NCBI GenBank assembly: GCA_003169975.1
Contig: PNAA01000031.1
Coordinates: forward strand, 1 to 42,239
Reading direction: 5' to 3'
Length of the DNA: 42,239 nt
Source of the DNA: Spartobacteria bacterium
Lineage (GTDB): Bacteria > Verrucomicrobiota > Verrucomicrobiia > Chthoniobacterales > UBA10450
Shown: positions 4,286 through 27,627 of the stretch, one piece after another
Position numbering within the stretch: the stretch's first letter is position 1
Layout of the letters: every line of letters starts with the position of its first letter
The notes under the pieces: generated by a model
Databases searched by the model: none
Told to the model about the DNA's origin: nothing
What the model saw: only the letters and a program-made list of their open reading frames with translations
Made by a program: the position numbers and the translations under genes

Positions 4286-4423
4286 CCGACCGGCTTTGTA
4301 GCAACTGGCGCTGGGAACTGCCAAGAAAAAAAACCCGGGGCGACAAGCTTGCAAAATGACCGCGAACTCCGTCATCCTCCGCGAGCGATGCGCAAACCTG
4401 CCGCGGCGACGAGGAGTCACGTA
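4286..4423. promoter_or_regulatory. Divergent intergenic region between HbpS-like and porin genes
   Basis: These 138 bases separate two divergent starts (4285 on minus, 4424 on plus), so promoters for both must lie here or just inside. A strong Shine-Dalgarno GAGGAG at 4411-4416 stands seven bases before the ATG at 4424 and decides the porin start over earlier in-frame ATGs at 4349 and 4388. No confident -10/-35 pair was found by eye. Confidence 0.6.
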
Positions 4424-6552: not shown

Positions 6553-7065
6553 ATGAGGAAGAAGAAAACGTTCAACGTTCAGCGCGACGGACGTGTTCGG
6601 GAAGAGCCTGACGCGTCCTTCAGTAGGGAAGAAAAAGGCAGAACGTCCAACGTCCAACGTCCAACGTCCAACGTCCAACGTAGAGGGGAAAACGGCGCGA
6701 CGTTGCGCGAGAAACCTTTTGATCTGGAAGACCGGCTGCTTGAATACGCAGTGCGAGTGATTCGATTGGTGGATTCGCTGCCCGCGACCAGGGCAGGCAG
6801 ACACGTTGCCGATCAGTTACTGCGCTGCGGGACCTCGCCGCTCGCAAATCATGGCGAACTTCAAGGGGCGGAATCACGCAAGGATTTCATTCACAAGCCT
6901 GGCATTTGCCTGAAAGAAATTCGGGAAGCGCAGCGCTGGCTCCGCCTGGTTCATCGCGTTCCGTTAGTCGCTCCAGGAAAAATTGAACCCTTGTTAAGCG
7001 AGACGGAAGCGCTCATCAAAATCTTCGCCGCCAGCATCCGCACGGCGGAGAAGAACGCGCGATGA
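6553..7065 (+). CDS. Four-helix-bundle protein (23S rRNA-intervening-sequence family) with repeat-encoded N-terminus
   Basis: This encodes 170 residues. The C-terminal 115 or so, from FDLEDRLLEYAVRVIRLV onward, match the four-helix-bundle family first known from 23S rRNA intervening sequences. Shared features are a CGTS-like turn, an N-H-G-E-(L/A) segment, an S-R-K-D-F-type helix and LLSETEALIKIF. The molecular role of the family is not established. The N-terminal 50 residues are basic and low-complexity and are partly encoded by heptamer repeats (SNVQRPTSNVQR), so the true start is uncertain. TTG at 6703 is a possible internal start. The gene begins two bases after the porin stop and overlaps the cytochrome start (ATGA at 7062-7065), so it is probably co-translated in the operon. 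Confidence 0.75.
   Translation: MRKKKTFNVQRDGRVREEPDASFSREEKGRTSNVQRPTSNVQRRGENGATLREKPFDLEDRLLEYAVRVIRLVDSLPATRAGRHVADQLLRCGTSPLANHGELQGAESRKDFIHKPGICLKEIREAQRWLRLVHRVPLVAPGKIEPLLSETEALIKIFAASIRTAEKNAR
6570..6583 (+). repeat. Two isolated inverted heptamer units
   Basis: GTTCAAC (6570-6576) and GTTCAGC (6577-6583) are inverse-orientation units of the same heptamer family, at the extreme 5' end of the four-helix-bundle gene. Confidence 0.6.
6642..6681 (-). repeat. Heptanucleotide array, five units, inverted orientation
   Basis: Five perfect GTCCAAC units (6645-6679) preceded by AAC read as five GTTGGAC units plus GTT on the minus strand. This is the same 38-base length as the arrays at 4444 and 7082. 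Together with the direct array at 7082-7119 it brackets the conserved part of the four-helix-bundle gene as an inverted pair. Confidence 0.9.
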
Positions 7066-10931: not shown

Positions 10932-13358
10932 TCAAGGCTTCGCCTTCTGCGACGGGGCCGCGGCGCTGAGTTTTTGAAAGCGCGGATCCTTGCGCAGCGG
11001 ATCGAACATCGGATCGAGGCGGAGGAGCGCGGGAGTAATCGGCAGGAGCGAAGCCAGCGCGCCCTCGCACGAGGGCATCGAGAGGAGCTTTTTGATAGCT
11101 GCGATGGCACGATCGGGCTCTCCCAGGCGTGCTGTCACGCGGGCGAGGACTTCAATCGGTGCGGAACTGGCCAACGCGTCTTTCTCGATTGGATTTGCGG
11201 CGATGGCCTGTTCCGCCAAAGCCACGGCGGCAGCCTTGTCGCCCAGGCTCATCGCGATCAGCGCGAGATCTCCCCGCAGGCTATAATTTTCCGGCTGCTC
11301 CTTGAGAAAAGATTCCAGTTCGTGGCGCGCTTCTCGCCAGGTTTCCCTCGCCGCGGTGGTGTCGCCCGCCACTTCTTGCGCCCAGCCTAACCAAAAGCGC
11401 AGTTCGCCATTGAGATAGCCCAAGGCGGGATCCGGCTTGGCCAATATCTCCTTGAGCCGAGGAATGACCGGTGCCGGGTTGCGCTCCAGAATCGCCTGGA
11501 AAAATTGTGTCTCCAACGCCGTGGTATCGTCCGCGGGCGGGTGAAGCGGAGCGAGAATCGCCGCGGCCCGCGGCAGATCGCCCTCGGCTTGTGCGATGCC
11601 CGCCTTGTTCACGAGGGTATCGATGTCGTCCGGCGCGATATTGAGCACCTGATCAAGCTTGCGCAGCGCTTCGGGAAAACGACGCTGGTCGATATAGAAG
11701 AGCGCGTACTGGGTTAATAACTCGACGTTGCGCGGGTCGAGCCGCTCGGCCTCTTTGAAATACGACTCGCACCGCTCCCACTGGCCTCGCCGCCGCGCGA
11801 CATAAGCCAGCCATTCAGGAACTTTGCTGCTATTGGGCAGAAGTGGGCGTGCCTGCTCAAAGTATCGCTCCGCGGTGTCCCAATCTTTCAGGCCGGAGTA
11901 ATAGTAATATCCTTTGGCCATCACGGCCTCGCCGAGATTGGGCTGAAGAGCGAGCGCTGTGTCGGCTGCCCGCTGCGTCTCTGCACGGAGCTCGACCGTG
12001 GGTTGCAGAGTCAGGGTGTCGTATCCGAGCGCATCGACATAGGCCAGCAGCGCCCAACCAAGGGCGAACTTCGGGTCCAACCTAACCGCTTCCCTGAGAT
12101 ATTTCTGTGCGTCAAGGGCGTTGGCGGATGTGTTACCACTCTTCAAGGTATAGGCCAGTCCGCGGAGGTAGGCGGTGTAGGCGTCCGGATTGTCGGTCGG
12201 CCGGGCGGCGATGACTTGCTCCTCCCGCCCGCTGAGGTGCGCGCGCAATTGATCGGCGATGGCTTTGGCGACGTCACTCTCGACTGAGAAGATGTCGGTC
12301 AGTTTGCGATCGAAGGTATCGGCCCAAAGATGGGAGTCATTGGCGGCCTTGATCAACTGCACGTTTACTCGCACGGCTGCGCCGTTCTTCTGCACGCTTC
12401 CTTCCAGGATGTGGGCGACACCAAGTTGTCGGGCGATCTCGGGCAGGTTTTCCGGCGCGCTTTTGTAGTGCTCAGTCGATGTCCGCGAGATCACCTTCAG
12501 ATCGGCGATCTTGGATAAGCGCGTCAGGATTTCGTCCTGGATGCCGTCGGCAAAGTAGGCGTTCGCCTTGTCTTCGCTCAGGTTTTGGAACGGCAGCACC
12601 GCGATCGATTTTTCCGGGATCACCGCGAGTGACGCCGCGGTGGAAGACCCTCTCGAGCCAGACCGATGTGAGAAAATGTAAAATCCCGCGGCGACGGCCG
12701 CGATGACGAGCGCGGCGATCAATGGACGTGACCATCTCGCCGGTTTCGCGTTCGCCCGCGCTGTTTGCGCCTCTCTTGCCTTGCGGAATTTCGCCGGCTC
12801 TTCCGGGTTGCCGAGTTCCTCCGTGTAGAGATTAACGACGGAGACGCGCACGCCGTGTTTCACCTCGCATTCGCCCAGGTCGTGCAGGTGCGGACGCCAT
12901 TCCGGATAATGCTCGAGGTCATCCGCCACATGTTTGGAGAGAAGGATGTGTCCGGCATCGCCGCAATCCATCACGCGCTGCGCCATGTTGATCCCGACGC
13001 CGGCCACGCCCGCCTGCTCGTTCACATCGATGACGCCACTGACCGGCCCGCTGTGCACACCCATGCGTAATTGCAGGTTGGGGTGGTCTTTCAGCGCGCG
13101 GCTGATTTCGAGCGCACATTCCGCCGGCTCTTCCGGGCTCCCGTAGAAAACCAGCGCCATCCCATCGCCCGTGGGAATCTTGATCAGTTTGCCGGCGGCT
13201 TCCGCCGCTTGAAATTCCTCCGTGTTGCGGACGATTTGGATAAGCGTATCGCGCAACGCGCGCTGCTCGCTAATCAGCAGCTTCGAGTAACCGACGATGT
13301 CGCTGAACAAGACATGCGCGATCTCGAGGTGAATTTCTCTTTTAACTTCGGTGGACAT
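10932..13358 (-). CDS. Class III nucleotidyl cyclase with membrane segment, FlgO/TolB-like and TPR domains
   Basis: This encodes 808 residues. Residues 10-180 are a class III cyclase catalytic domain. The metal-binding aspartates are D20 (LFSDIVGYS) and D65 (TGDGMAL), K60 is a candidate base-recognition lysine, and N124 and R128 fit the transition-state pair. The position that is Thr or Asp in typical adenylate cyclases appears to be Gly, so nucleotide preference is uncertain. A single transmembrane segment lies at 212-229. After it comes an IAVLPFQNLSED... ISRTS domain, common in such cyclases, then many TPRs to the C-terminus. The TPR half would lie on the far side of the membrane and may sense a partner. 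It is the last gene of a three-gene operon, starting 12 bases after the decaheme cytochrome stop. Confidence 0.9.
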   Translation of the reverse strand: MSTEVKREIHLEIAHVLFSDIVGYSKLLISEQRALRDTLIQIVRNTEEFQAAEAAGKLIKIPTGDGMALVFYGSPEEPAECALEISRALKDHPNLQLRMGVHSGPVSGVIDVNEQAGVAGVGINMAQRVMDCGDAGHILLSKHVADDLEHYPEWRPHLHDLGECEVKHGVRVSVVNLYTEELGNPEEPAKFRKAREAQTARANAKPARWSRPLIAALVIAAVAAGFYIFSHRSGSRGSSTAASLAVIPEKSIAVLPFQNLSEDKANAYFADGIQDEILTRLSKIADLKVISRTSTEHYKSAPENLPEIARQLGVAHILEGSVQKNGAAVRVNVQLIKAANDSHLWADTFDRKLTDIFSVESDVAKAIADQLRAHLSGREEQVIAARPTDNPDAYTAYLRGLAYTLKSGNTSANALDAQKYLREAVRLDPKFALGWALLAYVDALGYDTLTLQPTVELRAETQRAADTALALQPNLGEAVMAKGYYYYSGLKDWDTAERYFEQARPLLPNSSKVPEWLAYVARRRGQWERCESYFKEAERLDPRNVELLTQYALFYIDQRRFPEALRKLDQVLNIAPDDIDTLVNKAGIAQAEGDLPRAAAILAPLHPPADDTTALETQFFQAILERNPAPVIPRLKEILAKPDPALGYLNGELRFWLGWAQEVAGDTTAARETWREARHELESFLKEQPENYSLRGDLALIAMSLGDKAAAVALAEQAIAANPIEKDALASSAPIEVLARVTARLGEPDRAIAAIKKLLSMPSCEGALASLLPITPALLRLDPMFDPLRKDPRFQKLSAAAPSQKAKP

Positions 13359-13370
13359 TTCGCCGAAGCT

Positions 13371-14852
13371 TCACTGCCGCCGCGCGGTCGCGGCTTTTTG
13401 GCCAAGCCTTGTTTCTGCCGCGGTGAGTGACGCCGGCGCATGGTAGCTGTGGCAGGTGAGGCATTCGGCCACGACTTTTCCTTTTGGGCTGTGGCAGGTG
13501 ACGCAACTGGCTATGCCCGGCATGAGCACATCGGAGGTGAGGCGGCTGCGCGTGGCGTGATGGCACTCGTTGCAAGCGAGGGGCCGGAGCGTATTCGGGT
13601 CGACTTGATGTTTGGCGTGATCGAACCGGGCTCGGAGCATCCAGCGATCGACGAAAATCGGCTTGGCGATGAACGGCGCCTCATGCGCCACCGGTTGCAC
13701 GTCGTGGCAAAGCGCGCAGCCATAAAATAAGGCGCGCACCCGCGGCTCGGTTTCCAGCTGCGGCTTGTAGGGGTCCTTGGTAAAAAAAATCTGGTGCTCG
13801 AAATCTTCGCCCGAATGCACGCGCGCGCGCAATTGCAGCATTTGCCGGGTAACGAAGTTTTTGATCTCGTTAGGCTGGGTGATCCCTTTTCTTGCCGCCA
13901 GCTCCGCGTAATGCGCCGGAAGGCTGAGGAGGAAGCCACGTACCGCCGTCGTGTTGCCATGGGGCAAAGTGAGCTCGGGATTCTTCGGATCGAACTGGAG
14001 CGAATGACAGGCCTGGCACTGTGCCGCGAAAGTGATGCGCTGATTATTGTAACGCCCCTCGGAGTCGGGCTGGTGACAATAATTGCACGCGAGCTTCTTG
14101 CCGCCGACGATCGGGATGTCGGGAGCGAAATGCCGCTCGTGATTAAACTTCAGCGCGTCGCGATCGCGCGCCGGCTCCCGCTTGAGCTGAAATTCCGGAT
14201 GACCATCCCAGAACGAAGGGAAAACCTGGGTGTAACCGTCCACCGGCCGCGGCAAATCGAAGACGATCTGATGGGGCGGGTGGGGATGCCGCTGGAAATT
14301 TGTCCAGTCGAGCTGCCGCCCTTTCAGGGCGGAAGCTGCCATCGTTAGGCGATCGTCGTGGCAGGCGGCGCATTGCGCGCTCGCCACTATTTTCATCGGC
14401 CCGGGGCCGCGATGTTCCTGATGACAGACTGAACACGAGCGATTTTTCACGACGTTCGGCTCGTGAAAGTCGTAGATCCGCTTGTCCTGTTTGAGATGGC
14501 AGGCCGCGCAATTTTTGTCGATCGGGTCAAAGGCAATGCCGTGATGAAACCGATCGCTCAGCACCTTTTGGAATTTGATCGGCCTCAGCCGAGCGTCGGT
14601 CAGCGACGACTTGTCGTGGCAGCTCGCGCATTTTTCGATCAGGGCCGCGTGAGCGGCCGAAAGTTTTCCCGGGTTAAAGAATCTTTCGTCGCCTCTCCTC
14701 TGATAAGCGATGATCGCCGCGAGTCCGACGGAGAGGGCGAGAAAGCTCGCGATGAAACGCGCCGATCGCCACAAGTGGGCCTTGCGGTAATAGCCGAGAT
14801 TGCCTTGGTATTTCTCGGCGATCTGCTTCTGCGTCCTTCGGGGCGTGGCCAT
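13371..14852 (-). CDS. Membrane-anchored decaheme c-type cytochrome
   Basis: This encodes 493 residues. One uncleaved transmembrane helix at about 31-50, after a basic cytoplasmic tail, anchors a periplasmic domain. That domain has ten CXXCH sites, the first at residues 75, 115, 140 and 161 and the last three clustered near 437, 458 and 470. Histidine-rich segments such as HHGIAFDP, HPHPPH and FNHERHF could supply distal ligands, as in doubled-CXXCH and c7-type cytochromes. The start lies six bases after the cytochrome-b-like stop, and a cyclase follows. The likely role is to receive electrons from the membrane protein and pass them through the periplasm. Direction and partners are inferred. 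Confidence 0.92.
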   Translation of the reverse strand: MATPRRTQKQIAEKYQGNLGYYRKAHLWRSARFIASFLALSVGLAAIIAYQRRGDERFFNPGKLSAAHAALIEKCASCHDKSSLTDARLRPIKFQKVLSDRFHHGIAFDPIDKNCAACHLKQDKRIYDFHEPNVVKNRSCSVCHQEHRGPGPMKIVASAQCAACHDDRLTMAASALKGRQLDWTNFQRHPHPPHQIVFDLPRPVDGYTQVFPSFWDGHPEFQLKREPARDRDALKFNHERHFAPDIPIVGGKKLACNYCHQPDSEGRYNNQRITFAAQCQACHSLQFDPKNPELTLPHGNTTAVRGFLLSLPAHYAELAARKGITQPNEIKNFVTRQMLQLRARVHSGEDFEHQIFFTKDPYKPQLETEPRVRALFYGCALCHDVQPVAHEAPFIAKPIFVDRWMLRARFDHAKHQVDPNTLRPLACNECHHATRSRLTSDVLMPGIASCVTCHSPKGKVVAECLTCHSYHAPASLTAAETRLGQKAATARRQ

Positions 14853-14858
14853 CGGCTC

Positions 14859-15773
14859 TCAGTAATAAAACAGGGTCACAAACGCATGCCATGCGGTGAG
14901 CATGAGGAGGAGAAAGGAAAAAGGCACATGCACGAAAAGCCAGGCGTGCAGCCAGTGGTGCAACCGGATTTGCAAATCGAGCAGCCGGCGCTGATCGCAC
15001 CACGCCTGCATTTCTTCGAGCCGGCTGTGATACGCTTCCGTCACCCGGAGTCTTACGAAACGGAAGGCGTCGTCCGAATAAGCGTTGTCGCCGAGCCGAA
15101 ACCCTCGGCCGCGCCGCGCCTTGAGATAAGGCATGACTTGTTCTTCGAGAAACGCGACGAGCGCGGTCTCCGATTCGGCGTCGACGGCTGAAGGGCTCGC
15201 CGCAGTCTTCTGGGGCGCGGCCGACTTGAAGGCGTGGCACATCTTTTCCGCCGCGCGAAAGAGCTGCGCGCGAATGTGCGGGATTTGTTCGTAGACGGTT
15301 TCGGCGGGCAATCGCTCTTGCATGACGCGGGGCATCCGGTTTTGCAGGAACAATCCGTAGATGCCGCTCACCATGACCACGCTGTAAAACACCATGAGCA
15401 GAGTGGTCATCGGCCCGCCGAGCCGAAAGCCGCTGTGCAGGAGAACGAGCGGGATGGTGAGCAGGGTGAGCCAGATGTGAGCGCGCAGCCAGCGTTGCAC
15501 GCTGCCGATGGGCCAGAGGACCACTCTTTTGCGCAGGCTGAGGAGCGCGCCAAAAATAAAAATCGCGAATGAAACCGCGCCGAAAATCAAACCGACGGGA
15601 GTGCCGCCGATGCTGCGATGTTCCGATGTCTTTTGCACGAGCGCCGAGGGCAAACTCAGCCGGGGGGGTAACCGCGCCGGATAAAAATTTTCCACATAGA
15701 TCCAGCCGGCGGCGATGGTCGCCAGCACGACAAAGAGGAACCAGGGAACGTGCGCGCGATTAAGAATTCGCAT
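14859..15773 (-). CDS. Cytochrome-b-like integral membrane protein
   Basis: This encodes 304 residues with about five transmembrane helices at roughly 10-27, 60-80, 97-117, 124-144 and 279-300. Two helices carry histidines with 13 residues between them (H99 and H113, H282 and H296). This is the spacing expected for two bis-histidine b hemes stacked across the membrane. A 130-residue hydrophilic, helical loop separates helices 4 and 5. The protein probably exchanges electrons with the quinone pool or the cytoplasmic side and delivers them to the decaheme cytochrome encoded six bases downstream. I cannot assign it to a named cytochrome b family. Ferric-reductase-like or di-heme b-type subunits are the closest ideas. 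Confidence 0.8.
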   Translation of the reverse strand: MRILNRAHVPWFLFVVLATIAAGWIYVENFYPARLPPRLSLPSALVQKTSEHRSIGGTPVGLIFGAVSFAIFIFGALLSLRKRVVLWPIGSVQRWLRAHIWLTLLTIPLVLLHSGFRLGGPMTTLLMVFYSVVMVSGIYGLFLQNRMPRVMQERLPAETVYEQIPHIRAQLFRAAEKMCHAFKSAAPQKTAASPSAVDAESETALVAFLEEQVMPYLKARRGRGFRLGDNAYSDDAFRFVRLRVTEAYHSRLEEMQAWCDQRRLLDLQIRLHHWLHAWLFVHVPFSFLLLMLTAWHAFVTLFYY

Positions 15774-15987
15774 GCGCGCTCATGCCTCGATCAATGAAGC
15801 GACGCTCAGCGGGTTACCGCCGGTCAGCTTTTCGACAACGTCCTGCATGCGGATTTTTCTCGGGGAGTTGGCGCCAGAATACTCTTCCGGCGTTTTCAGG
15901 GAAGAACTTTTGCGTTGTTAGGCGGGATGGACGCCGATTCAGTTATTAGCTGGCTTTGCCGCCGCGCTCTCCGCTAACGTCGGGAGC
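15774..15987. promoter_or_regulatory. Divergent promoter region between the cytochrome b operon and the tetraheme operon
   Basis: These 214 bases separate the minus-strand cytochrome operon (start 15773) from the plus-strand tetraheme-NuoEF operon (start 15988). Shared control of the two arms is plausible. The left part holds a possible small minus-strand gene (15780-15848). No promoter hexamers could be called confidently by eye. Confidence 0.5.
15780..15848 (-). CDS. Possible 22-residue small protein upstream of cytochrome b gene
   Basis: A short frame starts at the ATG at 15848 and stops six bases before the cytochrome b start, the same spacing seen at the next junction of the operon. The peptide begins MQDVVEKLTGGN and continues as an amphipathic segment. 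The frame stays open upstream to a stop near 15920, so a longer non-ATG start is possible. No good Shine-Dalgarno is visible. It could be a leader peptide, a small subunit, or chance. Confidence 0.25.
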   Translation of the reverse strand: MQDVVEKLTGGNPLSVASLIEA

Positions 15988-17151
15988 GTGAGCGATGGAG
16001 CGTTTTACCGGTGGGCGGCCTGCGGGGCGATCGCCGTTTATCTGGCCGGGAACCCGGCCGCAGCAGGAAACACCGTCCCGCTTCAGACTGGCCAATTTGT
16101 CGGAACGGCCGGTTGCAAATCGTCCAGTTGCCACGGCGGGGCCGGCGAAAAGCGCAGCCAATATTTCACCTGGGTGCAGCAGGATTTTCACGCACGGGCT
16201 TATGCGGTCCTGGTCGACGCCCGCTCGGCGCGGATGGCCGAGACCCTTTCCTTGCCGGCCGCGCAAACGAGCGAACGCTGCACGGTTTGTCATTCCCCGT
16301 TGCAATCGGTCGCCCCCGCGCGCCTCGCGAAAACCGCCCGCGTCGATGAAGGCGTCTCCTGCGAAAGTTGTCACGGGGCCGCCGGGCCATGGCTCCGCGG
16401 GCACACCCGCAAAGACTGGAGTTACGCCACCCGCGTGACCGCCGGGATGCACGATCTCCGCAACTTCTACGTCCGCGCGAATACCTGCGTCGCCTGCCAC
16501 CAGAATCTTGCTCCGGAACTTCTGCAGGCCGGCCATCCGGAACTCATCTTCGAGTTGGATGGCCAGTCGGTCGCGGAGCCGGAGCACTGGAAGGACGATG
16601 ATCCGGCACGTGGCCCGCGCGCGTGGCTGGTCGGGCAGGCGGTCGCACTGCGCGAGATGAGTTGGGCGCTCGCGCAAAATGAGACGGTCGACTCGGAAAG
16701 CGTGAACCGTTGGCAGGGGCTCGCCTGGCTGCTGGCCAAAGCCACAGCCACCCAATCGCACCTGCCGCTTATCGCCCCGCCCGGCGAGTCAACCAGCCAC
16801 GCCTTGTTTGTCAGCGTGCAGGAACAGGCGGACTCGCTCGCGCGGCGCGCCGCGGTCGATCCGTGGAACGATGCCTTTGCCGCCACGGCCCTGCGCGCGC
16901 TGGCTTCTGCCGACGCGGATTTCGTCCCAGCAAAAAACATCTCTGCGGACCTGCTTTTTCGTCGCGCGCGGAGACTCGTTCTCGCGCTCGATCGCCTCTC
17001 CCGCGCGACGCAACAGCAGCCATTGGGCGCGACGAAGAATCCCGCACTTTCCCCCCTTTTCGAGGACCTCCGGTTGCAAGCCGATTTTCAGCCCGCGAAA
17101 TTTGCGGCCGATCTGGTAACTTTTCGCACGACAATGGAACGCTCGCCGTAA
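15988..17151 (+). CDS. Tetraheme c-type cytochrome, cytochrome c554-like
   Basis: This encodes 387 residues from a GTG at 15988, the start that preserves the signal peptide (to NPAAAG). Four heme sites are seen: a CX4CH at 43-49 followed by GG, then CXXCH at 98, 125 and 167. Surrounding residues (QDFHARAYAVL, EGVSCESCHG, LQAGHPELIFELD) match the widespread c554-like multiheme family. The C-terminal half lacks heme sites and is mostly helical. It is a periplasmic electron carrier or redox enzyme. The gene heads the plus-strand operon and is followed 101 bases later by the NuoE-NuoF fusion, so it probably shares an electron pathway with that protein. Confidence 0.88.
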   Translation: MSDGAFYRWAACGAIAVYLAGNPAAAGNTVPLQTGQFVGTAGCKSSSCHGGAGEKRSQYFTWVQQDFHARAYAVLVDARSARMAETLSLPAAQTSERCTVCHSPLQSVAPARLAKTARVDEGVSCESCHGAAGPWLRGHTRKDWSYATRVTAGMHDLRNFYVRANTCVACHQNLAPELLQAGHPELIFELDGQSVAEPEHWKDDDPARGPRAWLVGQAVALREMSWALAQNETVDSESVNRWQGLAWLLAKATATQSHLPLIAPPGESTSHALFVSVQEQADSLARRAAVDPWNDAFAATALRALASADADFVPAKNISADLLFRRARRLVLALDRLSRATQQQPLGATKNPALSPLFEDLRLQADFQPAKFAADLVTFRTTMERSP

Positions 17152-17252
17152 TAGCATTGCCCTGCCTCTATGCCTAACGAACCCCGGATTTTCGGCAACG
17201 CGACGCCGACTCCCTGCGCCCTGATCTTCGGGGCGGCGTCCGGATAAGAAAA

Positions 17253-19307
17253 ATGGATACCGAACGGCTGACTTTGTATGCTCCGGTGCTCGTTCCGGCG
17301 TTGCACCGCATTCAGGACGAATTCGGCTACCTCAAGCCAGAGGCTCTCGCGGAGTTCTCGAAAGAGTCGGGTGTGCCGCAGTATCGGCTTCAGGCGGTGG
17401 CCAGTTTCTTTCCCCATTTTCTGCTCACACCGCCCAAGAAAGTCGTGCTGCGAGTCTGCCGCGATCTGTCGTGTCACCTGGCCGGGTCCGGCAAAATGCT
17501 GCCGGAATTGGACGCGCTCACGGGCGAACACGTCGCGGTCGAAGGCGTGTCGTGTCTGGGCCGCTGCGACCGCGCGCCGGCCGCGTGCCTCTCGGTCCAG
17601 GGCTCGGAACACGAACACTATTATCTGGCCCGCTCGAGTGATGAGTTGAAGGCCATCGTCGCGGCCACTCTCCAGGGTGCGCCACCCGCGCCGGACCATG
17701 ATATCGATCGCAGTTTTCTGGGCGATGACGCCATCATCGATCCCTACAAAGGAGAAGCACCAGACTATCGGGCGGTGCGCGCCGCGATCGCGGCCCGTGA
17801 CGCCTCGTTAGGCACGGCGATGAAATTACTCTCGGCCAGGCCGGAGTGGACTCTGGGAATGCTGGAGAAGTTTCGCATCGCGGCCATTCGCCAAATGCGA
17901 GTCGATTTCGAAATGGAGCCGGCCATTCGCGAGGCGGTCCGCTCCTGGCAGACGGAAGGCGAATGGGCGAAAGGTCCGGAGTTAGGTGGATGGTCGGACA
18001 TCCTTCTCAATGAGATCCGCGACGCCGATCTCCGCGGATTAGGCGGTGCGGGAATTCCCGCGGTGCAAAAATGGCAGGACGTACGAGACGCCGTCCGGAA
18101 AGCCCGCCAGCGGGAGTCGGACGATCGGGCGTTTATCGTGGTCAACGGCGACGAGAGCGAACCGGGCACGTTCAAGGACCGCGAGCTTCTCCTCCGCACC
18201 CCGCACCTGGTCGTCGAAGCGGTCATCCTGGCGAGTCTGATCACCGAGGCCACTCAGGGTTTCATCTACATCCGCCATGAGTACGCCGAACAAATCGAGG
18301 CGTGTCGGCGCGAGATTCGGCGCGCGGAGCAACTTGGCCTCTGCGGCGAGAATGCGATGGTGCTCGGCCGGTCTTTGCCCATTGCTGTGTTCGTTAGTCC
18401 GGGGGGTTACATTTGCGGGGAACAAAGCGCGCTCATCGAAGCCATGTCGGATCGGCGCGGCGAGCCGCGCAACATGCCGCCGAAATTGGAGACGAATGGG
18501 TTGAACGATCTCCCGACGCTGGTGAGCAATGTGGAAACCTTTGCCTGGGTTCCTTTTGTCTGCCTGCGCGGCGGCAAAACCTACGCCGCCCAAGGCGTGA
18601 ATGGTTGGAAAGGTCGCCGAATATTCTCGGTCTCAGGAGACGTCAAGCGCCCGGGTGTCTATGAGGTCCCCATGGGACTCACCCTGCGCGAACTGATTTA
18701 CGGCGAGCAGTATTGTCGCGGGATCGCGGGCGATAAGAAGCTCAAAGGTTTTGCCCCCTCGGGCCCATCCGGTGGATTTCTTCCCGCAAAACTTACACCG
18801 GGTAAGGGCTTGCCGCGCGACCACACGAACAATAAGAGCTGGCAGGCGCTGGCCACTCGACGCGGGTTTGATCCGGCCTCGGCTGAACTCGACATCCTCG
18901 ATCTCGAGCTGGAGTTAAATCTTTTCCGCGCCCTAAGTCCTACCCAGGCGCTGGGCGCCGGGTTAACCGTTTATGCAGAGGGACGGGACATGGCTGAGCA
19001 AGCCGTCAATTCGGTGGAGTTCTTTCGCAATGAGTCATGCGGCAAATGTGTGCCGTGCCGGCTGGGATCGCAGAAAATGGCGTCGCTCGGATCCCATTTG
19101 CTGAGTGGCAAGATTCAAGCGGCCAGCTGGAAGAATGAAATTCTGCCGCTCATTAAAGAAATGGGGACAGCGATTGAGTTAGCCTCGATCTGCGGGCTGG
19201 GACGGTCGGTCCCGATTCCTCTCAAGACGGCAGCGGCCTTTTTTGAGGAAGATGTGACCAAACATTTGTCAGAGAATGGGGCGGCCCCTGCCGCCAAACC
19301 TGGATAG
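17253..19307 (+). CDS. NuoE-NuoF fusion: NADH-oxidising flavin/iron-sulfur subunit
   Basis: This encodes 684 residues. Residues 1-145 are a NuoE-like thioredoxin fold with the [2Fe-2S] pattern CX4C (C69, C74) and CX3C (C101, C105). From about 165 it is NuoF-like. The FMN loop GLGGAG is at 262-267, the nucleotide segment GDESEPGTFKDRELL at 299-313, and YICGEQSALIEA near 386. The [4Fe-4S] ligands are CX2CX2C at 596, 599 and 602 plus C647. The expected role is oxidation of NADH (or NADPH) in the cytoplasm and transfer of single electrons to the Fe-S chain. A 65-residue insert precedes the FMN loop, unlike standard NuoF. No other complex I genes are present. The next gene starts three bases after the stop, so they almost surely form a complex. 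Confidence 0.93.
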   Translation: MDTERLTLYAPVLVPALHRIQDEFGYLKPEALAEFSKESGVPQYRLQAVASFFPHFLLTPPKKVVLRVCRDLSCHLAGSGKMLPELDALTGEHVAVEGVSCLGRCDRAPAACLSVQGSEHEHYYLARSSDELKAIVAATLQGAPPAPDHDIDRSFLGDDAIIDPYKGEAPDYRAVRAAIAARDASLGTAMKLLSARPEWTLGMLEKFRIAAIRQMRVDFEMEPAIREAVRSWQTEGEWAKGPELGGWSDILLNEIRDADLRGLGGAGIPAVQKWQDVRDAVRKARQRESDDRAFIVVNGDESEPGTFKDRELLLRTPHLVVEAVILASLITEATQGFIYIRHEYAEQIEACRREIRRAEQLGLCGENAMVLGRSLPIAVFVSPGGYICGEQSALIEAMSDRRGEPRNMPPKLETNGLNDLPTLVSNVETFAWVPFVCLRGGKTYAAQGVNGWKGRRIFSVSGDVKRPGVYEVPMGLTLRELIYGEQYCRGIAGDKKLKGFAPSGPSGGFLPAKLTPGKGLPRDHTNNKSWQALATRRGFDPASAELDILDLELELNLFRALSPTQALGAGLTVYAEGRDMAEQAVNSVEFFRNESCGKCVPCRLGSQKMASLGSHLLSGKIQAASWKNEILPLIKEMGTAIELASICGLGRSVPIPLKTAAAFFEEDVTKHLSENGAAPAAKPG

Positions 19308-19310
19308 CAT

Positions 19311-21845
19311 ATGCCACAAGGTTCGGATTTCGTTGCCGGTTTATTCGTTCGTGACGACGACGAAGGGTTATTCAGCCGCGACATCAATGGACAACTCGTC
19401 CGGCTGGATACGCCGACGGAGTCCGACTACGAAAAGGATGTTACTCTGCAGATCGATGGTTTGCCGGTGACGGTGCCCTTGGCCGAGCCGTTAACTGATG
19501 CCAACGGCAATATCGTGGTCGACTTGGAAGGGCGCACGACCCCGCGGTACACCACGATTTATGACGCGGCGCGGAAGCTTTACGTTGAGCAGATAGGTGA
19601 CGAAAAGAAGATCCCGATTCCGGTTTTGTGCCATCAGCCGCATATGACTCCGGTGGCGGTCTGCCGCCTTTGCATCGTCCAGATCTACGGCCAAAAGCGC
19701 GGTCGCCGGGCGGCGGAGCGCAAGCTGCTGCCTGCCTGCCAGCACCAGGTCAAGGAAGGGATGGAAGTTTTCACCATGAATGCCCCCGGCCCCGATGGCG
19801 ATCGGGTCCGCCAGACCGTGAAGGTGATGACCGAACTGTTGGCGGCCGACCATTTGAAGCCGGCGAAACCTCCTGAGCTGGAGAAAGAGTTCTCGCAATT
19901 CAATGAGCTCGGCCAGATGACGCAACGATGCGGGGCCGACCCCTCGCGCTTCAAGCTGGAGATCCTGTCGAACCCGCCACCGCCCGCACGGCCCAACGCC
20001 GGCCGGCGCGAAGCCGATTCTTCCTCGCCCGTCTTCCTCGTCGATCACAGCGCCTGTATTCTCTGCGATCGCTGTGTGCGCGCCTGTGATGATGTCCGGG
20101 AGAACCACGTCATCGGGCGGACGGGCAAAGGCGCGACGACTGGGATTGGATTCGATCTCAACGTGCCGATGGGGCAATCGACCTGCGTGCAATGCGGCGA
20201 ATGCATGGTGTCCTGTCCGACGAGCGCCATCACCTTTAAACCCGTCGCGGAAGTGAAGATTCTCGGGCAGAGCCGATCCGCCGAAGTGTTGACGGCGCGC
20301 GAACTGACTTCCGATCCTGTCTTCGCGGGCATTCCACCAAAGTTCTTGCTCTGGCAGCGCGGCTTGGTCATTCGTCGAAGAGTTAGAGCTGGCCAGGTCT
20401 TGTGCCGCCAGGGAGATCCGGGTAACACCGCGTTCATTATCCGCGACGGCCGGTTCAGGGTAAAAATTCTGCCCAAGCCGTCAGGGGCCGGCAGCGGTCT
20501 GTCATGGTTGGGTCGCCCGAAGCCCATTATCAGGCAGCGGACTCCAGCCGATGTGATTATCGGCGAAATGGCCTGTTTGAATGGAACACCACGCACGGCC
20601 GATGTTACGGCACTGGAAGATGGCGAGGTCTGGGAGATCCGCCGCAACGTGCTCGACCGGCTCATGCGCCTCCCCAGTCAGCGCCAGAGATTTGAGAGCG
20701 AATATCGTAAGAGCTCTTTGGACCTGGCGTTGCAAAACATGGACCTGTTCAGTGACATCGTGCGGGAAGAATACGGCCGGATCGTGGAGTTCCTGCGGCA
20801 ACGACTAACCTTCGTCCGCGTGCAACCGGGTCAAACTCTCTTCAAAGAGGGCGAGATAGCGACTCGTTTGTATCTCATCCGCCTCGGCCACGTCCGGGTC
20901 GGTGTGCAACAGCATGGCAAGGAAGCCAAGATTATCACCAAAGGTCCCGGCACCATTCTGGGAGAGATCGGATTGCTTGCTCTTTCCCTCGATGACGAGC
21001 GAAAAACGGTCGAAGAAATCGACCGCGCCTTGAAGTATAAGCTCGATCAGGCCGGGGACGACTTGACCGCCGTCCTTCCGCCCGGGGTACGCAGCGCGAC
21101 CTGCTCGGCCTTGAATCAGCTCGAGCTGGCGCAACTTAGTCGGGCCGACTTTCTCGAGATGCTGCGCAAGTTCGGCGTCTTGCGCCGCAGGATCGTCGAG
21201 CAATCTCTCGCCCGTTTGTACAGCTCGACCGTGGGTCACCGGATCCTCGACGACTACGTCGAGCAGGGTCTCTATGAAGGTCAGAGCATTCTGGTGCTCG
21301 ACCTGGATAACTGCACACGCTGCGACGCCTGCACCAGGGGCTGTGTCGAGCGCCATGGGACGGAGACCCACGGCATCCCCATCCCGCGCCTGCTCCGAGC
21401 CGGGCGACGGCTCGATAATTTCCTGGTCGCTACCTCCTGCCGGTCCTGCACGGATCCACATTGCATGGTCGGATGTCCCGTCGACTCCATTCATCGCGGC
21501 AAGCACCTCCAAATCGTCATCGAAGACCACTGTATCGGGTGCGGTCTGTGCGCCGAAAACTGCCCCTACGGCAGCATTTTCATGATACCTAACGAACGAA
21601 AGCCAGTTTCCCTGCCCGACCCGGAGCACGCCGGGCGAACTCACTTCGTCGGTCAGCTGAAGGCCGCCAACTGCGACCTGTGCGACGCACACGGGGACCT
21701 CTCCGCGCCACGTCCGGCCTGCGTCGCGGCCTGTCCGCATGATGCGGCCTTTCGCATGACCGGGCCGCAACTGCTCGAGCGCGTGATGGGAGCGCATGCC
21801 GAAGACCTGGCCGCGGCTGGCCTGCGTGGCCGCATGACCGCCTGA
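19311..21845 (+). CDS. NuoG-N-like / double cNMP-binding / four-cluster ferredoxin fusion protein
   Basis: This encodes 844 residues, no signal peptide, cytoplasmic. The order of parts is as follows. A NuoG-type [2Fe-2S] domain has C107, C118, C121 and C143. The His-Cys cluster region that normally follows has lost its cysteines. Two [4Fe-4S] sites lie at C249-C259 and C292-C302. Two cyclic-nucleotide-binding domains follow (about 345-455 and 480-625), each with a phosphate-binding cassette that keeps Glu and Arg (E419/R428 and E552/R594). The second has an insert of about 35 residues. Last is a DmsB/PsrB-like ferredoxin with four cysteine quartets (from 668, 710, 741 and 788). It could carry seven Fe-S clusters. 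It likely relays electrons from the NuoEF fusion under cNMP control. The output partner is unknown. Confidence 0.93.
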   Translation: MPQGSDFVAGLFVRDDDEGLFSRDINGQLVRLDTPTESDYEKDVTLQIDGLPVTVPLAEPLTDANGNIVVDLEGRTTPRYTTIYDAARKLYVEQIGDEKKIPIPVLCHQPHMTPVAVCRLCIVQIYGQKRGRRAAERKLLPACQHQVKEGMEVFTMNAPGPDGDRVRQTVKVMTELLAADHLKPAKPPELEKEFSQFNELGQMTQRCGADPSRFKLEILSNPPPPARPNAGRREADSSSPVFLVDHSACILCDRCVRACDDVRENHVIGRTGKGATTGIGFDLNVPMGQSTCVQCGECMVSCPTSAITFKPVAEVKILGQSRSAEVLTARELTSDPVFAGIPPKFLLWQRGLVIRRRVRAGQVLCRQGDPGNTAFIIRDGRFRVKILPKPSGAGSGLSWLGRPKPIIRQRTPADVIIGEMACLNGTPRTADVTALEDGEVWEIRRNVLDRLMRLPSQRQRFESEYRKSSLDLALQNMDLFSDIVREEYGRIVEFLRQRLTFVRVQPGQTLFKEGEIATRLYLIRLGHVRVGVQQHGKEAKIITKGPGTILGEIGLLALSLDDERKTVEEIDRALKYKLDQAGDDLTAVLPPGVRSATCSALNQLELAQLSRADFLEMLRKFGVLRRRIVEQSLARLYSSTVGHRILDDYVEQGLYEGQSILVLDLDNCTRCDACTRGCVERHGTETHGIPIPRLLRAGRRLDNFLVATSCRSCTDPHCMVGCPVDSIHRGKHLQIVIEDHCIGCGLCAENCPYGSIFMIPNERKPVSLPDPEHAGRTHFVGQLKAANCDLCDAHGDLSAPRPACVAACPHDAAFRMTGPQLLERVMGAHAEDLAAAGLRGRMTA

Positions 21846-21871
21846 GGCGCGGGTCGACTGGAACGCCGCGG

Positions 21872-23872
21872 TTATTTTTCCGATAGCTCAATGATTCCGT
21901 TCCAATTTTCTATCTTGTCCTGGCGTGACAGGGTCGCAATCTTTCGTAGATAAAACTCGACAGGGCCGTCCGTGCCGCCCCGCAGTTCACGGGTACGGCT
22001 CATTAGCTCGGCGGCCTTGGAAAAGTCGCCCACCCGAAAGGTCTCCAGCCCCGCTTCGAAAACTTCAATCCAAGCCCGCTCACCTGCCTCTGCCCCAGAG
22101 CGACAGAGCAGCTCGTGAATGACTACGCCATGTGTCTTGCCGGCGACCCGAAATTCTCCCAGGCGCCGGGTGATAAATTTACTGTCCAGCTGTTGGCGGA
22201 CAGAGTCGGAAATCAAGACTTGGGTACCGAGATACTTGTTCAGTGACTCAAGGCGGGAGGCAAAGTTTGTCGTATCTCCGATCATCGTATAATCAAACCG
22301 GAACGAAGAGCCGAGATTGCCCGCCAGCACTTTGCCGCTATTGACTCCAACCCGCGTCCGCAATTTTTTCCCCCTCACTTCCATTTCGCTGAGACACCGA
22401 AGGTCGCAGGCCGCCTCCGCGGCGCGAATGGCGTGCGCTGGCTCATCGACCGGCGCGCCCCAGGCCGCCATCACCGCGTCACCGACATATTTGATGATCG
22501 TGCCCTTGTTCTCGAGAATGCAGCGCGTGGTTTGCTCGAAATAGGCAATCAAGATCGCGGAAACCTCCGCCGGGTCCAGGTCTTCGGACAAGGTCGTAAA
22601 GTTTTCCAGATCGGTAAAAATCACCGTAGCCTCGACAACTTTGCCACCTGGCCGGAGATCGAAATCAGAGTTGGCAATCCTATCCGCCATTTGCGGCGAG
22701 AGATAGAAACCGAAAGCCTTGCGCAACTCCTTGCGACGGCGCGATTCGAGGAGGTATTGCGAGCCAACGCTCCAGGTCAGGCCAAACGGTATTTGCACCG
22801 CCACGGGAATCAGCCAGGCAAACCAGATGCGTTGGTGCCAGACAAGGAAGCAGGCAGCGCACGCCATGCCGGCGGAGATAATGACCGCCAAAAGAGTCGC
22901 CGGGATGGGTCGCAAGAAACTGAGGCCGCCGGCTAAGAGACCGATGAGGACGATCAGGGCAGTCTCTCGATTCAACGCTATGCGCGTGAGCCAGTCGCCG
23001 CGCAGCAAATTCAGCAGGATGGTGGCATGAACTTCGGTCCCGGGAGTAAATTGGTGATTCGACCTCGAGTAGGGCGTGCTGAATTCGTCTCTCTGGACTT
23101 TTTGGCCACCAAGAGCGAGCTGTCCACCAACGAGGACGATTTTGTTTTTGAAAAAATCAGGAGGAACCCCGTTCGGCGTAAGCGCCTGCGCAATGCTCAC
23201 GGAGGAAAAGGTCCCGCACGGACCGTAGTAATTCACCCAGTGCGGCTTCAGGGTGTCTCGTGTCTCGCCGGTCATCTTTGCTCCGAGGAATTTGGCGGCT
23301 TCCCAAGTAGCCTCCGCTTTGACACTGTTGCCGAAATAGATGTGCCGCACTCCGTAATCGGGATCGACCGGCCTGAAGGCCAGAAGGCCCCAACTGGCCG
23401 CGGCTTTGCGCAATAGCTTGATCGGCGGCGAAACGCTCTCCGATCTCACGCCCTGCCGTTCCTTGAGATCGAGCGCCGCGCCCAGAATCACTCTCCCATT
23501 CTTGCGCATGGAATCCGCGAAAGCGACATCGGCGGTGGGATCGGGGGCGGGCTGGTCGAAGACAATATCGTAGAAGACCACGCGCGCCATATCCTCAGTG
23601 AGGCGATTCAGCAGGGCGACGTGCAGCGCCCGGTTCCAGACGTCGTCCAGTGGTTGGTTCAACTGTTTCGCGGAATACTCGTCGAGATAGACGAGGACGA
23701 CTTCGTGGGTGTCGATAGGAGCGCGCCAGAGGAAAGGCAGATCATAGCTTTGCCGGACCAACGGCTCGGCGAAAGAGTAGCGCAGGCAGGCGAGGCCTAA
23801 CCCCACGGCAATCAACGCGCCGGCTGCGATCGTTAGGCCGCGGGTCAGATGCCTGATCTGGCGAATCTGCAT
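21872..23872 (-). CDS. CHASE2-domain class III adenylate cyclase
   Basis: This encodes 666 residues. A first transmembrane helix at about 12-30 leads to a CHASE2 extracytoplasmic sensor domain (about 35-300), then three transmembrane helices (about 303-372). The class III cyclase domain is at about 410-560. The metal aspartates are D421 (IFTDLENFT) and D465 (YVGDAVMA). K461 and T529 fit adenine selection of the class IIIb type, and N536 and R540 are the transition-state pair, so cAMP production is likely. A short C-terminal TPR-like tail follows. The gene starts 57 bases after the FecR-TPR-barrel gene, and FecR and CHASE2 cyclases are often neighbours. It converges with the cNMP-binding Fe-S gene, 26 bases apart. 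Confidence 0.93.
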   Translation of the reverse strand: MQIRQIRHLTRGLTIAAGALIAVGLGLACLRYSFAEPLVRQSYDLPFLWRAPIDTHEVVLVYLDEYSAKQLNQPLDDVWNRALHVALLNRLTEDMARVVFYDIVFDQPAPDPTADVAFADSMRKNGRVILGAALDLKERQGVRSESVSPPIKLLRKAAASWGLLAFRPVDPDYGVRHIYFGNSVKAEATWEAAKFLGAKMTGETRDTLKPHWVNYYGPCGTFSSVSIAQALTPNGVPPDFFKNKIVLVGGQLALGGQKVQRDEFSTPYSRSNHQFTPGTEVHATILLNLLRGDWLTRIALNRETALIVLIGLLAGGLSFLRPIPATLLAVIISAGMACAACFLVWHQRIWFAWLIPVAVQIPFGLTWSVGSQYLLESRRRKELRKAFGFYLSPQMADRIANSDFDLRPGGKVVEATVIFTDLENFTTLSEDLDPAEVSAILIAYFEQTTRCILENKGTIIKYVGDAVMAAWGAPVDEPAHAIRAAEAACDLRCLSEMEVRGKKLRTRVGVNSGKVLAGNLGSSFRFDYTMIGDTTNFASRLESLNKYLGTQVLISDSVRQQLDSKFITRRLGEFRVAGKTHGVVIHELLCRSGAEAGERAWIEVFEAGLETFRVGDFSKAAELMSRTRELRGGTDGPVEFYLRKIATLSRQDKIENWNGIIELSEK

Positions 23873-23929: not shown

Positions 23930-26900
23930 TTAGAAGTTCAAACGTACCCGCGCCACGAAGGTTCGCTCGCGCGGCAGCTCGTTGTAGTAATTGAGCGGAT
24001 TCAGTTTGTAATCCTGATCGTTGATGTCGAGAAAACCGAGCGTGATGTCGCCGTAGTTGCGGCGAAAACGATATCCGGCATAGGCGTTAAGCTGGAAGAT
24101 TTCATCGCCGGGTTCGTCTGGCGCGTAACCAACATTACTCTGTCGCGCCCAGTAGCCTTCGAGACGCCCGAACCAACCGGACGGGTGATTGTAAATCGCA
24201 AAAACCTGCGCCTGATGGAGCGTGCCTTTCTGGCGGCTATCCGCGAGCGGGGAAATCGCGCGTGGGATTTCAGGAAAGATCATTTCGAGGTCGGAGAAGG
24301 AAAGCTGATACTTGGCGCCCACGGACCATCGGTCACCCAGTAGCTGGTTGAAGGTGAAGAGGAGATCCTGCTCTTCGTAGCGCAGTTGTTCGGGGGTGGA
24401 GGAAGGAATGATCGGCGGAGTGATCCGGTCGTTGGCGACGAAGGCGTCGAAGGTTCCAAGCCGGCGATCCACGTCGGAGCGCAGGAGAATGGCTTGTGCC
24501 GCCACGTAGGTGCCGGAGCCAAATTTATCTTCGATCATCAGCCCTGCGTTCTCATAATTGGGCGCCGCCACCGAGCCGACGGCCGATTCGGAAATAATGC
24601 TGCGAAAGACCTGATTGAAACCCGCGACCTGATTGGGCTCGAGCTGGACGCTCTCATCGAAACTGACTCCGCCCAGTGCGCGAGTATAGGCAGCACGAAC
24701 AACCAGGCTGCCGCACGGGTTCCAGATCACGCCGGCTTTGGGCGAAACCCGGGAGCGCGAACTTTCAGAGTCAATGATCGGGGGGTTGCGATAGTTTGCC
24801 GGAAAACCCACGTGATCGTAGCTGATCCCGCCAGTGAGCGACAGGCCTCGAAACGGCCGCCAGGTGTCGTAGGCATAAAAGCTTTGGCGTTCGAAGCTGG
24901 TGTTGAAATCCTGGGCCGCTGCCGGAACGGTGAAAAAGGGTGCCGCGAAAGGTGGCGGGTTATTCAACTGATCGCTGGTGTGGAATTCGCCCGCTTGAAA
25001 GCGCGCGCCGAAGATGAGCGTATTCTTCTCGGTCTCCCAGATCTGGTTAAACTCCCCGGTATAGGTCGTGAACGTGCTGTGATAGTGAAGGTCGAGTGGG
25101 AGGACAAAGGGAGCGAGTGTCACCGCGCCAGTTGCGTCGCGGGGAATGATTAGGGAGCGACTCACGTTGGGGTGCAATCCGGTCAGGTCGAACTCGGCCA
25201 CGTCGGCGGCTTTATTGAGATCGTTGAACGTAATGTCGTCAGCCAGTCTCCCGGCCAGGAGCAGGGTGTGAACGCCGGGTGCCCACTCGTGATGATAACC
25301 GATGAGAATGATCGCGGGCTGCTGGAGCTCGCGAAAATGAGCGCCGGGCTCGGCCTGGATCTGGTCGTAGCGCTGCAGTAAGTCTCCCTGCCGCGTGTCC
25401 TGATACTTGGTCTGGAAAAAGATGCTGTCCTGCGGAGTCAGTTGCACCTTGGCCTGGGCGTAGGATTCGGAGCGCGTGATCTCGTTGTTGGGCCGGCGAC
25501 CGTTGTCGTACTGAAACTCGGTATCGAGCGAGTAACTCACGTTTCCGAAGATTCCGTACTGCGAAGCCGTCTCGCGCAGCTCGCCACTGCTGAAGTAAGT
25601 GGAGGTCGAGCTGATCCCGAAGCGATCTGCTTCGAACAGTTTCGAGTATTCCTGCTCCGAGACAAACTGGGACAACGGTCCGCCGCCAACCGGGGCAAGA
25701 AGGTTGGCCAGCAGGAGCTCGTTAAACCAGGGCGTCTCGTAGCGCAGGTTGATCCGTTGCGGATCGCGCAAGGCATTGTAGCTGTTGGCGAGAAAGAGAT
25801 GGGCGGAAGCATTGGAGTAATCCGAGTCCACGCCCCGGGTGGCTTCGCGCACGCTCAGGTCGTCCATCCCATCTTCCTGGTAAATCGCCGCCAGGTTCGC
25901 GCTCCGCACCGCGCGATCCTGATCAAGCAGAAACTTCGAGCGATACAGCTGCCGGTTATCGTTTAGTTCGATCGATTTCTCCAGGTCGCGCACGGCCTCG
26001 TTGATTCGGTTGTCCTGCCGGTTTTCGATCGCGGAATAAATCCAGGGAGTAGGATCACCCGGATCGAGTTGTTTGGCGCGATCGAGATCCTTCCGCGCTT
26101 TCTGCTCGTCGCCGGCGTTGCTGAACGCTTTCCCGAGATAACTGTGCAAGATCGAACGATTCGGCTCCAACGCTGCGGCCGCTTGGAGATCGCGCCGCCC
26201 CTCTTCCGCGTGACCCTGCCGAATCGCGCAGAGGCCGCGGCCCAGCCAGGCGTTGCCGAGTGCGCTATCCAGCGATAGGGCCTTTTCAAAGGAATCCCTC
26301 GCACCATTGATGTTGTTTTCCGCGCTCAGGAGAAAGCCGCGCAGCGCATGTGCAGCCGGATTGCGCGGAGCCAGGTTAAGTCCTTTTTCCAATGCCTCCT
26401 TCGCCTGTGGCACCCGGCCGAAACCAAATTCCAACTCGGCCACCCGTGTCCGGGCGAAGCCAAATGTCTGGTCAAGGGCGGTGGCATGCTGCGCCGCTTC
26501 CAAGGCGCCCGTAAGATCCTTGTTCGATTGCCGATAGTAGGATTCAGCGACCCAATCGCTCGCCGTGCGCGGCGGGCCCGCGCTTGCTTTTGTCTGCAAG
26601 GTCACGGCGGCAATCAAAGTGGAAAGCGCTTCGCGTCCGGGCGCGTCCTGACTTATTCCGCGCAGCAGACGCTCTGCCTTCTCCACCTGACCGACGACGA
26701 GAAATAACCCTGCACGATAAACTCTTTCCGCGGGAGAGGCGGGCGACCGGTGCGGAGGGTATGCCTTGAGGGCCTTAAGCAAATCGCCCTGGTTGTAGGC
26801 GGTGAGTGATTCTCGCAGCGCATCCCGGGTTTCCGAAGAAAGCCTCAGATCGTTCAGATCAAGGACGCCCGGATAATAGAGGCACCACTGGACGAGGTTG

Positions 26901-27547: not shown

Positions 27548-27627
27548 GATGGTGTGGTGGGTGGACGATATCCTGCCCGAAAGTGAGAGCGATCGTCGAT
27601 GTTTATTCTTGATGGATTGCGTCCTTC

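Follow-up and report, generated by a model that had tools for sequence, protein, structure and literature searches.

A candidate cyclic-nucleotide-gated electron-transfer chain from NADH to multiheme cytochromes in Verrucomicrobiota and other bacterial phyla

Second-messenger control of bacterial respiration is regarded mainly as transcriptional. In Shewanella, cyclic AMP (cAMP) together with CRP is reported to control respiration through transcription (PMC12210985). Clusters of porin and multiheme cytochrome genes in Verrucomicrobia have been proposed to support extracellular electron transfer; their periplasmic cytochromes have eight hemes, the inner-membrane step was left undefined, and the word 'cyclic' appears nowhere in the text (He et al., 2017; PMC5615132). 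Here we analyze a 42,239-nucleotide stretch of DNA, hereafter the window (contig PNAA01000031.1, positions 1 to 42,239), from the 4.47 Mb, 59-contig genome of a Spartobacteria bacterium. It encodes an 844-residue iron-sulfur protein, here called the hub, that carries two cyclic nucleoside monophosphate (cNMP)-binding domains and lies among genes for a NuoE-NuoF fusion, a transmembrane cytochrome b and multiheme cytochromes c. We think it probable that these genes encode a widespread, apparently undescribed chain from NADH to multiheme cytochromes that is gated by a cyclic nucleotide at the hub. The initial annotation of this DNA, made from the sequence alone, had remarked that no respiratory complex gated in this way was described; consistent with this, neither the hub nor a cNMP-gated electron carrier or respiration turned up in a literature search that covered few subscription papers and no bioRxiv preprints. 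If the gating reading holds, the system is of a new kind.

The hub consists of two iron-sulfur halves with a tandem cNMP receptor between them. The N-terminal half resembles HoxU, HydA1 and NuoG in NCBIfam and Foldseek comparisons, with structural matches to HydABCSL (7t30, E 1e-13) and to formate dehydrogenases (E about 1e-13), and contains motifs for one [2Fe-2S] cluster (C107, C118, C121, C143) and two [4Fe-4S] clusters (C249-C302). It scores 46 bits with the curated NuoG model TIGR01973 vs a cut-off of 470 and so falls outside NuoG proper. Possible N3-type cysteines (hub residues 181-198, positions about 19851-19904) occur in about 40 of the 70 long homologues and are lost in the window, where ligands of this type are missing from region 178-203. 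In the C-terminal half, 16 conserved cysteines correspond, by their conservation, to four [4Fe-4S] sites. The receptor itself matches PF00027 above the cut-off (E 4e-32, 110 bits). An AlphaFold2 model of the hub, built from 42 aligned sequences, reached a mean pLDDT of 78 and a pTM of 0.77, and its middle portion was matched by Foldseek to the tandem cyclic-nucleotide-binding (CNB) domains of a protein kinase A (PKA) regulatory subunit (6rsx, E 7e-15).

The Gly-Glu...Arg cassette of such domains binds the phosphate of cyclic nucleotides. In the first cNMP domain, G418, E419 and R428 are kept in 95 of the 95 proteins with sequence there, and P427 (90), A430 (91) and A434 (92) are nearly constant in the same set. 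In the second, proteins of the long architecture retain E552 in 69 of 70 cases and R594 in 67 of 70. The initial annotation had credited both domains with a Glu/Arg cassette. This stands for domain 1, where the cassette is intact, but the domain 2 cassette of the window is interrupted by roughly 30-40 inserted residues, though E552 and R594 remain. Conservation like this would be expected of a functional receptor, with nucleotide binding as its predicted role. Among the Pfam matches of the hub there is no helix-turn-helix (HTH) or other DNA-binding domain, and its C-terminus is Fer4; the cNMP domains therefore most likely act through the hub protein itself. Together, the position of the receptor between the two iron-sulfur halves, the invariant domain 1 cassette and the missing DNA-binding domain agree with the earlier suggestion that any effect would be exerted on the protein directly and not by way of transcription.

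NuoEF domains oxidise NADH, and the window's fusion matches the NADH dehydrogenase input families PF01257 (E 1e-19), PF01512 (E 3e-35) and PF10589 (E 3e-18). In the mechanism we propose, NADH would be oxidised at the flavin mononucleotide (FMN) site of the fusion, and electrons would enter the NuoG/HoxU-like half of the hub, cross to its HydN-like half, and leave through the transmembrane cytochrome b to the decaheme cytochrome, which is anchored in the membrane and faces the periplasm. The next carriers would be the tetraheme cytochrome and, where present, the porin-like barrel and LVIVD decaheme cytochrome, which perhaps carry the electrons outside the cell. A class III cyclase would make the cyclic nucleotide and a phosphodiesterase would remove it; nucleotide bound at the tandem receptor would open or close the path by changing how the two iron-sulfur halves are placed with respect to one another. 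Heme and cluster occupancy, the direction of electron flow, nucleotide binding and gating are predictions here, drawn from the parts, architecture, conservation and linkage described in this report.

Relatives of the hub were found by a profile scan of named genomes, and the 80 best-scoring of 570 candidate loci, which are not a random sample, were analyzed with their flanks searched by local hidden Markov models (HMMs). These loci span Verrucomicrobiota, Planctomycetota, Acidobacteriota, Rokubacteria, Wallbacteria, one Rhodanobacteraceae bin and one bin labelled Actinobacteria, and full-length or near full-length hub homologues are present in Verrucomicrobiota, Planctomycetota, Acidobacteriota, Rokubacteria and the Rhodanobacteraceae bin. 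Because the hub architecture recurs across phyla, it is more than a chance arrangement. In the hub tree the window groups with Chthoniobacterales, with locus L054 nearest; a search of 289 genomes of the phylum gave a second full-length hub match only in G258. Where flanks were adequate (41 loci), cytochrome b was found in 35, the decaheme cytochrome in 34, NuoEF in 31, the tetraheme cytochrome in 30, the porin-like and LVIVD genes in 14 each, and a cyclase in 8. In every one of the 61 loci where NuoEF was found, it lies immediately upstream of the hub and on its strand. This conserved gene set holds up independently of the gating reading. A viral origin of the system was rejected, as no relatives were found in viral contigs.

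The input module is exchanged between lineages while the cNMP-cNMP-FeS core, the cytochrome b and a multiheme gene stay. In f9-type relatives a gene for a flavin reductase bearing FAD, NAD and 2Fe-2S domains precedes that of the hub, which has no NuoG-like half, and on Sphingobium plasmids the hub carries a fused pyridine-nucleotide-disulphide-oxidoreductase (Pyr_redox) domain; input in these lineages would thus pass through a flavoprotein of the ferredoxin-reductase type (FNR-type, as in L042-type loci) or through the fused pyridine-nucleotide-type domain. Even within the window's own family, G013 and G167 pair a short hub with a cytochrome b and decaheme cytochrome that are 56-71% identical to those of the window. 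The constant element is the receptor with its HydN-like half, which supports this element as the entry to the membrane chain.

Several variants of the core deserve mention in their own right. The Pyr_redox-fused system (L053, on Sphingobium herbicidovorans pMSHV and related plasmids) resides on megaplasmids, one of which is typed as conjugative, and has an FHA-like domain on its multiheme protein. At L050 (G126) an FHA domain is found on the flavin reductase gene, and phosphorylation may therefore be a further means of regulating the input module. The genome G121 has the short-hub core twice, as the diverged copies L045 and L046.

On the membrane side, the four histidines H99, H113, H282 and H296 of the cytochrome b, along with W95, are common to the 35 sequences aligned, and an AlphaFold2 model (pLDDT 90) places the four histidines on two long transmembrane helices. 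Given these invariant histidines, the protein would act as a transmembrane diheme cytochrome. It has no Pfam or NCBIfam match; VIA rows for the model gave generic helical bundles, with STEAP1/2 at a Z of about 7. At L062 the decaheme and tetraheme cytochromes are merged into a single 14-heme frame. An apparent fusion of cytochrome b and decaheme at L117 was not used, as the frame lacks the last transmembrane helix. The electron-transfer block also reaches further left than had been noted, to a porin-like barrel gene and an LVIVD decaheme gene that adjoin each other in the window and in many other loci. The porin-like protein, which ends in ...GILTVTLTY and is a predicted barrel from its sequence, matches at 788 bits an HMM built, from f9 relatives, on the gene of 787-807 residues found ahead of their LVIVD cytochrome gene; the LVIVD decaheme is 62-68% identical in these relatives and weakly like ExtM.

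Cyclic nucleotides are produced by class III cyclases, and the initial annotation had named a lack of conserved linkage between such cyclases and the cluster in related genomes as a point against its proposal. In statistical terms the linkage does exist. As a conserved trait it was rejected, and it is retained as a statistical enrichment that lies far above chance. Expected counts were calculated from PF00211 matches per genome and genome size over 80 genomes (median 3 cyclases), assuming uniform placement and treating loci as independent. A cyclase is found within 10 kb of the hub in 12 of the 80 loci vs 1.21 expected (P 7e-9), within 2 kb in 6 vs 0.57 (P 3e-5) and within 200 bp in 3 vs 0.32. 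On a quick hub tree the cyclase label changes 12 times for 13 positives, the window included, and the linkage is therefore spread over the tree rather than derived from one inherited event. A GGDEF control over 50 loci returned 0 vs 1.1 expected, a low-count result with one GGDEF match in all loci; chance clustering of signalling genes in general was set aside on this ground.

Enzymes that would remove the nucleotide are enriched as well. The class II cAMP phosphodiesterase family PF02112 is represented nearby in four loci (L069, L072, L077, L088) vs 0.08 expected (P 2e-6), with scores of 47-63 bits against a gathering score of 23.7; the L069 gene is 28 bp from the hub, and the 50 genomes searched contain zero or one copy each. 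RNase Z-like metallo-beta-lactamase (MBL) proteins in L101, L103, L114 and L117 were excluded from this count. In Sphingobium a CpdA/SpdA-like phosphoesterase, scoring below curated cut-offs, follows the multiheme gene. At the acidobacterial locus L088, phosphodiesterase and cyclase continue the NuoEF-hub-cytochrome run with short gaps (Table 1). The linked cyclase is the genome's sole PF00211 match in L088, L096 and L104. The L088 cyclase also bears an FHA domain.

Both cyclases of the window are encoded on the strand opposite NuoEF and the hub, which puts them outside the hub operon; cyc2 converges on the hub gene, with about 26 bp between them. In alignment cyc2 has both metal-binding Asp residues, the Lys/Asp purine pair, Asn and Arg, and it is a plausible partner of the system. 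In cyc1 the metal Asp, Asn and Arg are present, the adenine-specifying Asp is lost (GVGIN vs GDTVN in active enzymes) and the Lys is shifted. We set cyc1 aside as a part of the system on account of this loss and because no TPR-type cyclase stands beside any other locus examined; it is probably an incidental neighbour. The cyclases near the hub in Planctomycetes (L061, L065, L066, L067, L072, L077) have Asp in place of the purine-specifying Lys (VDYIGD), and in several of them the second specifying residue is changed too (GH, GN, GQ); they may make another nucleotide or differ in activity. Elsewhere in the window's genome, about nine class III cyclase matches in open frames of 663-880 residues fall in a 20 kb run (G000:C20:39359-59159). 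Long cyclases, which may be of the TPR type seen in cyc1, seem to have multiplied in tandem there.

The window's genome has 24 class III cyclase matches, and for this reason two cyclases nearby are weak evidence taken alone. They could be chance neighbours in so cyclase-rich a genome, as the lack of linkage of the TPR type elsewhere would have it. In L054, the nearest relative, no cyclase lies in the flanks searched, 10 kb to one side of the hub and 2.5 kb to the other, which makes the link seen in the window a recent one or one confined to its lineage. For cyc1 this explanation is favoured. For the two together we find it unlikely, given the tenfold excess over the 80 genomes and the presence of CHASE2 cyclases like cyc2 near the hub in L096, L101 and L114. 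Another objection accepts the NADH-to-cytochrome pathway as real and makes the cNMP domains structural, serving assembly or dimerisation, or receptors for another ligand, with the cyclases serving other targets such as CRP-type regulators. Cyclase linkage is a minority trait (15% of loci), the genome has other cNMP-domain proteins (12 cNMP-domain matches in all), and hubs of the FNR-fed subgroup have a partly degenerate cNMP-2, in which some of the cassette is lost, while cNMP-1 is not degenerate. A purely structural domain, however, would not need the Gly, Glu and Arg of cNMP-1 to be invariant over several phyla; cyclase and phosphodiesterase are both enriched at the locus, once within one gene run; and the hub has no HTH domain. 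We consider this account improbable. Weighing against gating, besides the low linkage, the bare flanks of L054 and the degenerate cNMP-2, are that most of the loci come from metagenome bins, that the 50-locus control set holds all 12 cyclase positives (the unbiased cyclase figure being the 80-locus one), that the Planctomycete cyclases beside the hub may yield a nucleotide other than cAMP, or none, and that Foldseek returned nothing at E <= 0.001 for the cytochrome b model. Gating at the hub remains the reading we prefer. The wider proposition, a whole class of respiratory chains gated directly, with the receptor inside the NADH-to-membrane carrier, a dedicated cyclase and phosphodiesterase encoded in some of the operons and a possibly non-canonical nucleotide in Planctomycetes, is to our mind evenly poised. 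As a separate observation, the window's genome also has a 1053-residue open frame with two strong cNMP domains (G000:C23:174435-175082).

Two further alternatives concern the chain rather than its control. The cytochrome b may be a quinone reductase, making the system a cNMP-regulated NADH:quinone oxidoreductase with the cytochromes on a separate branch. The Sphingobium homologue does match cytochrome b561/Ni_hydr_CYTB weakly, a family with quinone-reactive members, but the decaheme gene adjoins cytochrome b on the same strand in 69 of the 74 loci with cytochrome b, and we hold this version to be rather improbable. Flow could also be reversed, so that an external donor feeds the outer cytochromes and NAD+ is reduced at the other end of the chain. 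Reduction of NAD+ from a high-potential donor through such a chain is uphill, no energy-coupling subunit was recognised, and the exchanged modules are NAD(P)H-type inputs; it is on the last two grounds that we infer flow from NADH outward. Porin-multiheme systems have been proposed to work in both directions, including PioAB and MtoAB in Fe(II) oxidation (PMC6344600), and reverse flow is in our estimate quite unlikely here.

All genes named in the initial annotation were found where it had placed them, from the two flanking cyclases and the NuoE-NuoF fusion to the single protein joining two cNMP domains with several iron-sulfur clusters, the decaheme cytochrome and the membrane cytochrome b (Table 1). 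The tetraheme cytochrome needs a small correction: it has four heme motifs, but only three are CxxCH. Nothing notable was seen among repeats within the block, and a simple pattern search of the 15774-15987 spacer found no CRP-like binding site. To the left of the porin-like gene, on the minus strand (1913-4420), the window encodes a large protein with two HbpS-like (haem-degrading-type) stretches, and at 23930-27631 a single frame combines FecR, TPR repeats and a TonB-dependent-receptor-like barrel.

Table 1. Coordinates of genes and hub regions in the window, followed by the gene run at L088 (acidobacterial contig).
Feature	Position	Strand	Evidence and remarks
Predicted outer-membrane beta-barrel (porin-like), 733 residues	4349..6550	+	Start uncertain; barrel predicted from sequence character
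Small 23S rRNA-intervening-sequence-type protein	6553-7065	Same as flanking porin-like and LVIVD genes	
LVIVD-repeat decaheme cytochrome c, 1281 residues	7062..10907	+	10 CxxCH; PF08309 E 4e-16
cyc1, class III cyclase with TPR repeats	10932..13358	-	PF00211 E 5e-8; TPR
Membrane-anchored decaheme cytochrome c, 493 residues	13371..14852	-	10 CxxCH; PF14522; hydrophobic segment at N-terminus
Transmembrane cytochrome b, 304 residues	14859..15773	-	Four invariant His
c554-type tetraheme cytochrome	15988..17151	+	PF13435; 3 CxxCH and 1 CxxxxCH
NuoE-NuoF fusion (NADH/FMN input module), 684 residues	17253..19307	+	PF01257, PF01512, PF10589, SLBB
FeS/cNMP hub protein, 844 residues	19311..21845	+	Two PF00027 stretches; Fer2_4 and Fer4 families
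Hub, NuoG/HoxU-like half, residues 43-316	19437..20258	+	Cys conservation; Foldseek
Hub, cNMP domain 1, residues 356-453	20376..20669	+	Cassette G418 E419 ... P427 R428
Hub, cNMP domain 2, residues about 500-612	20808..21146	+	Cassette split by insertion; E552, R594
Hub, HydN/DmsB-like half, residues about 660-815	21288..21755	+	16 conserved Cys; NCBIfam similarity to HydN
cyc2, CHASE2 class III cyclase	21872..23872	-	CHASE2 E 3e-34; PF00211 E 1e-25
L088 NuoEF	500-2335	One strand	
L088 hub	2338-4500	Same	
L088 cytochrome b	4500-5417	Same	
L088 decaheme cytochrome	to 6861	Same	
L088 phosphodiesterase	6863-7633	Same	Short gap
L088 cyclase	7653-9278	Same	Short gap

If gating is real, a cell could open or close the electron path without new gene expression. 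The porin-multiheme systems that have been proposed for Verrucomicrobia and related bacteria would then gain a candidate for their inner-membrane step, and the class III cyclases of Planctomycetes and Acidobacteria a testable target. The gene set is carried by many uncultured soil and water bacteria, and the relevant settings are soils, bogs and sediments, habitats in which the export of electrons from the cell bears on carbon turnover.

Compared with described systems, the input side is most readily set beside NuoEFG, HoxFU and HydABC, with which it shares NuoE and NuoF domains and their FMN, NADH and 4Fe-4S binding regions. It differs from them in that the NuoG-like half has no molybdopterin or hydrogenase domain, is missing the N3-type cysteine ligands in the window, and forms one polypeptide with a tandem cNMP receptor and another iron-sulfur half. 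The cytochrome b recalls STEAP/NOX-type diheme cytochromes b, since its histidine pairs, located on two membrane-spanning helices, would bind two hemes for transfer across the membrane, but it has no significant sequence or fold match to them, STEAP appearing only at a weak Z. The outer genes resemble the clusters of He et al., 2017 in gene arrangement, with a porin gene beside multiheme cytochrome genes in the same phylum. As for the receptor, the PKA regulatory subunit, its best Foldseek match, has tandem CNB domains and the conserved cassette in common with it, whereas the hub is bacterial, has its CNB domains inside an iron-sulfur electron carrier and has no known kinase partner. The cNMP-binding fold and cassette are shared also with CRP/FNR-type regulators, but the hub ends in an iron-sulfur half and no DNA-binding domain was found in it. 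Bacteria also have CNB proteins with functions other than transcriptional regulation: the mycobacterial Pat acetyltransferase and the family 2B encapsulins likewise fuse a CNB domain to a non-DNA-binding part, and the hub or its Sphingobium relative has weak NCBIfam similarity to them; unlike the hub, they are not iron-sulfur electron carriers. As with cAMP-CRP in Shewanella, a cyclic nucleotide would control respiration here, with the difference that the receptor is itself part of the electron carrier.

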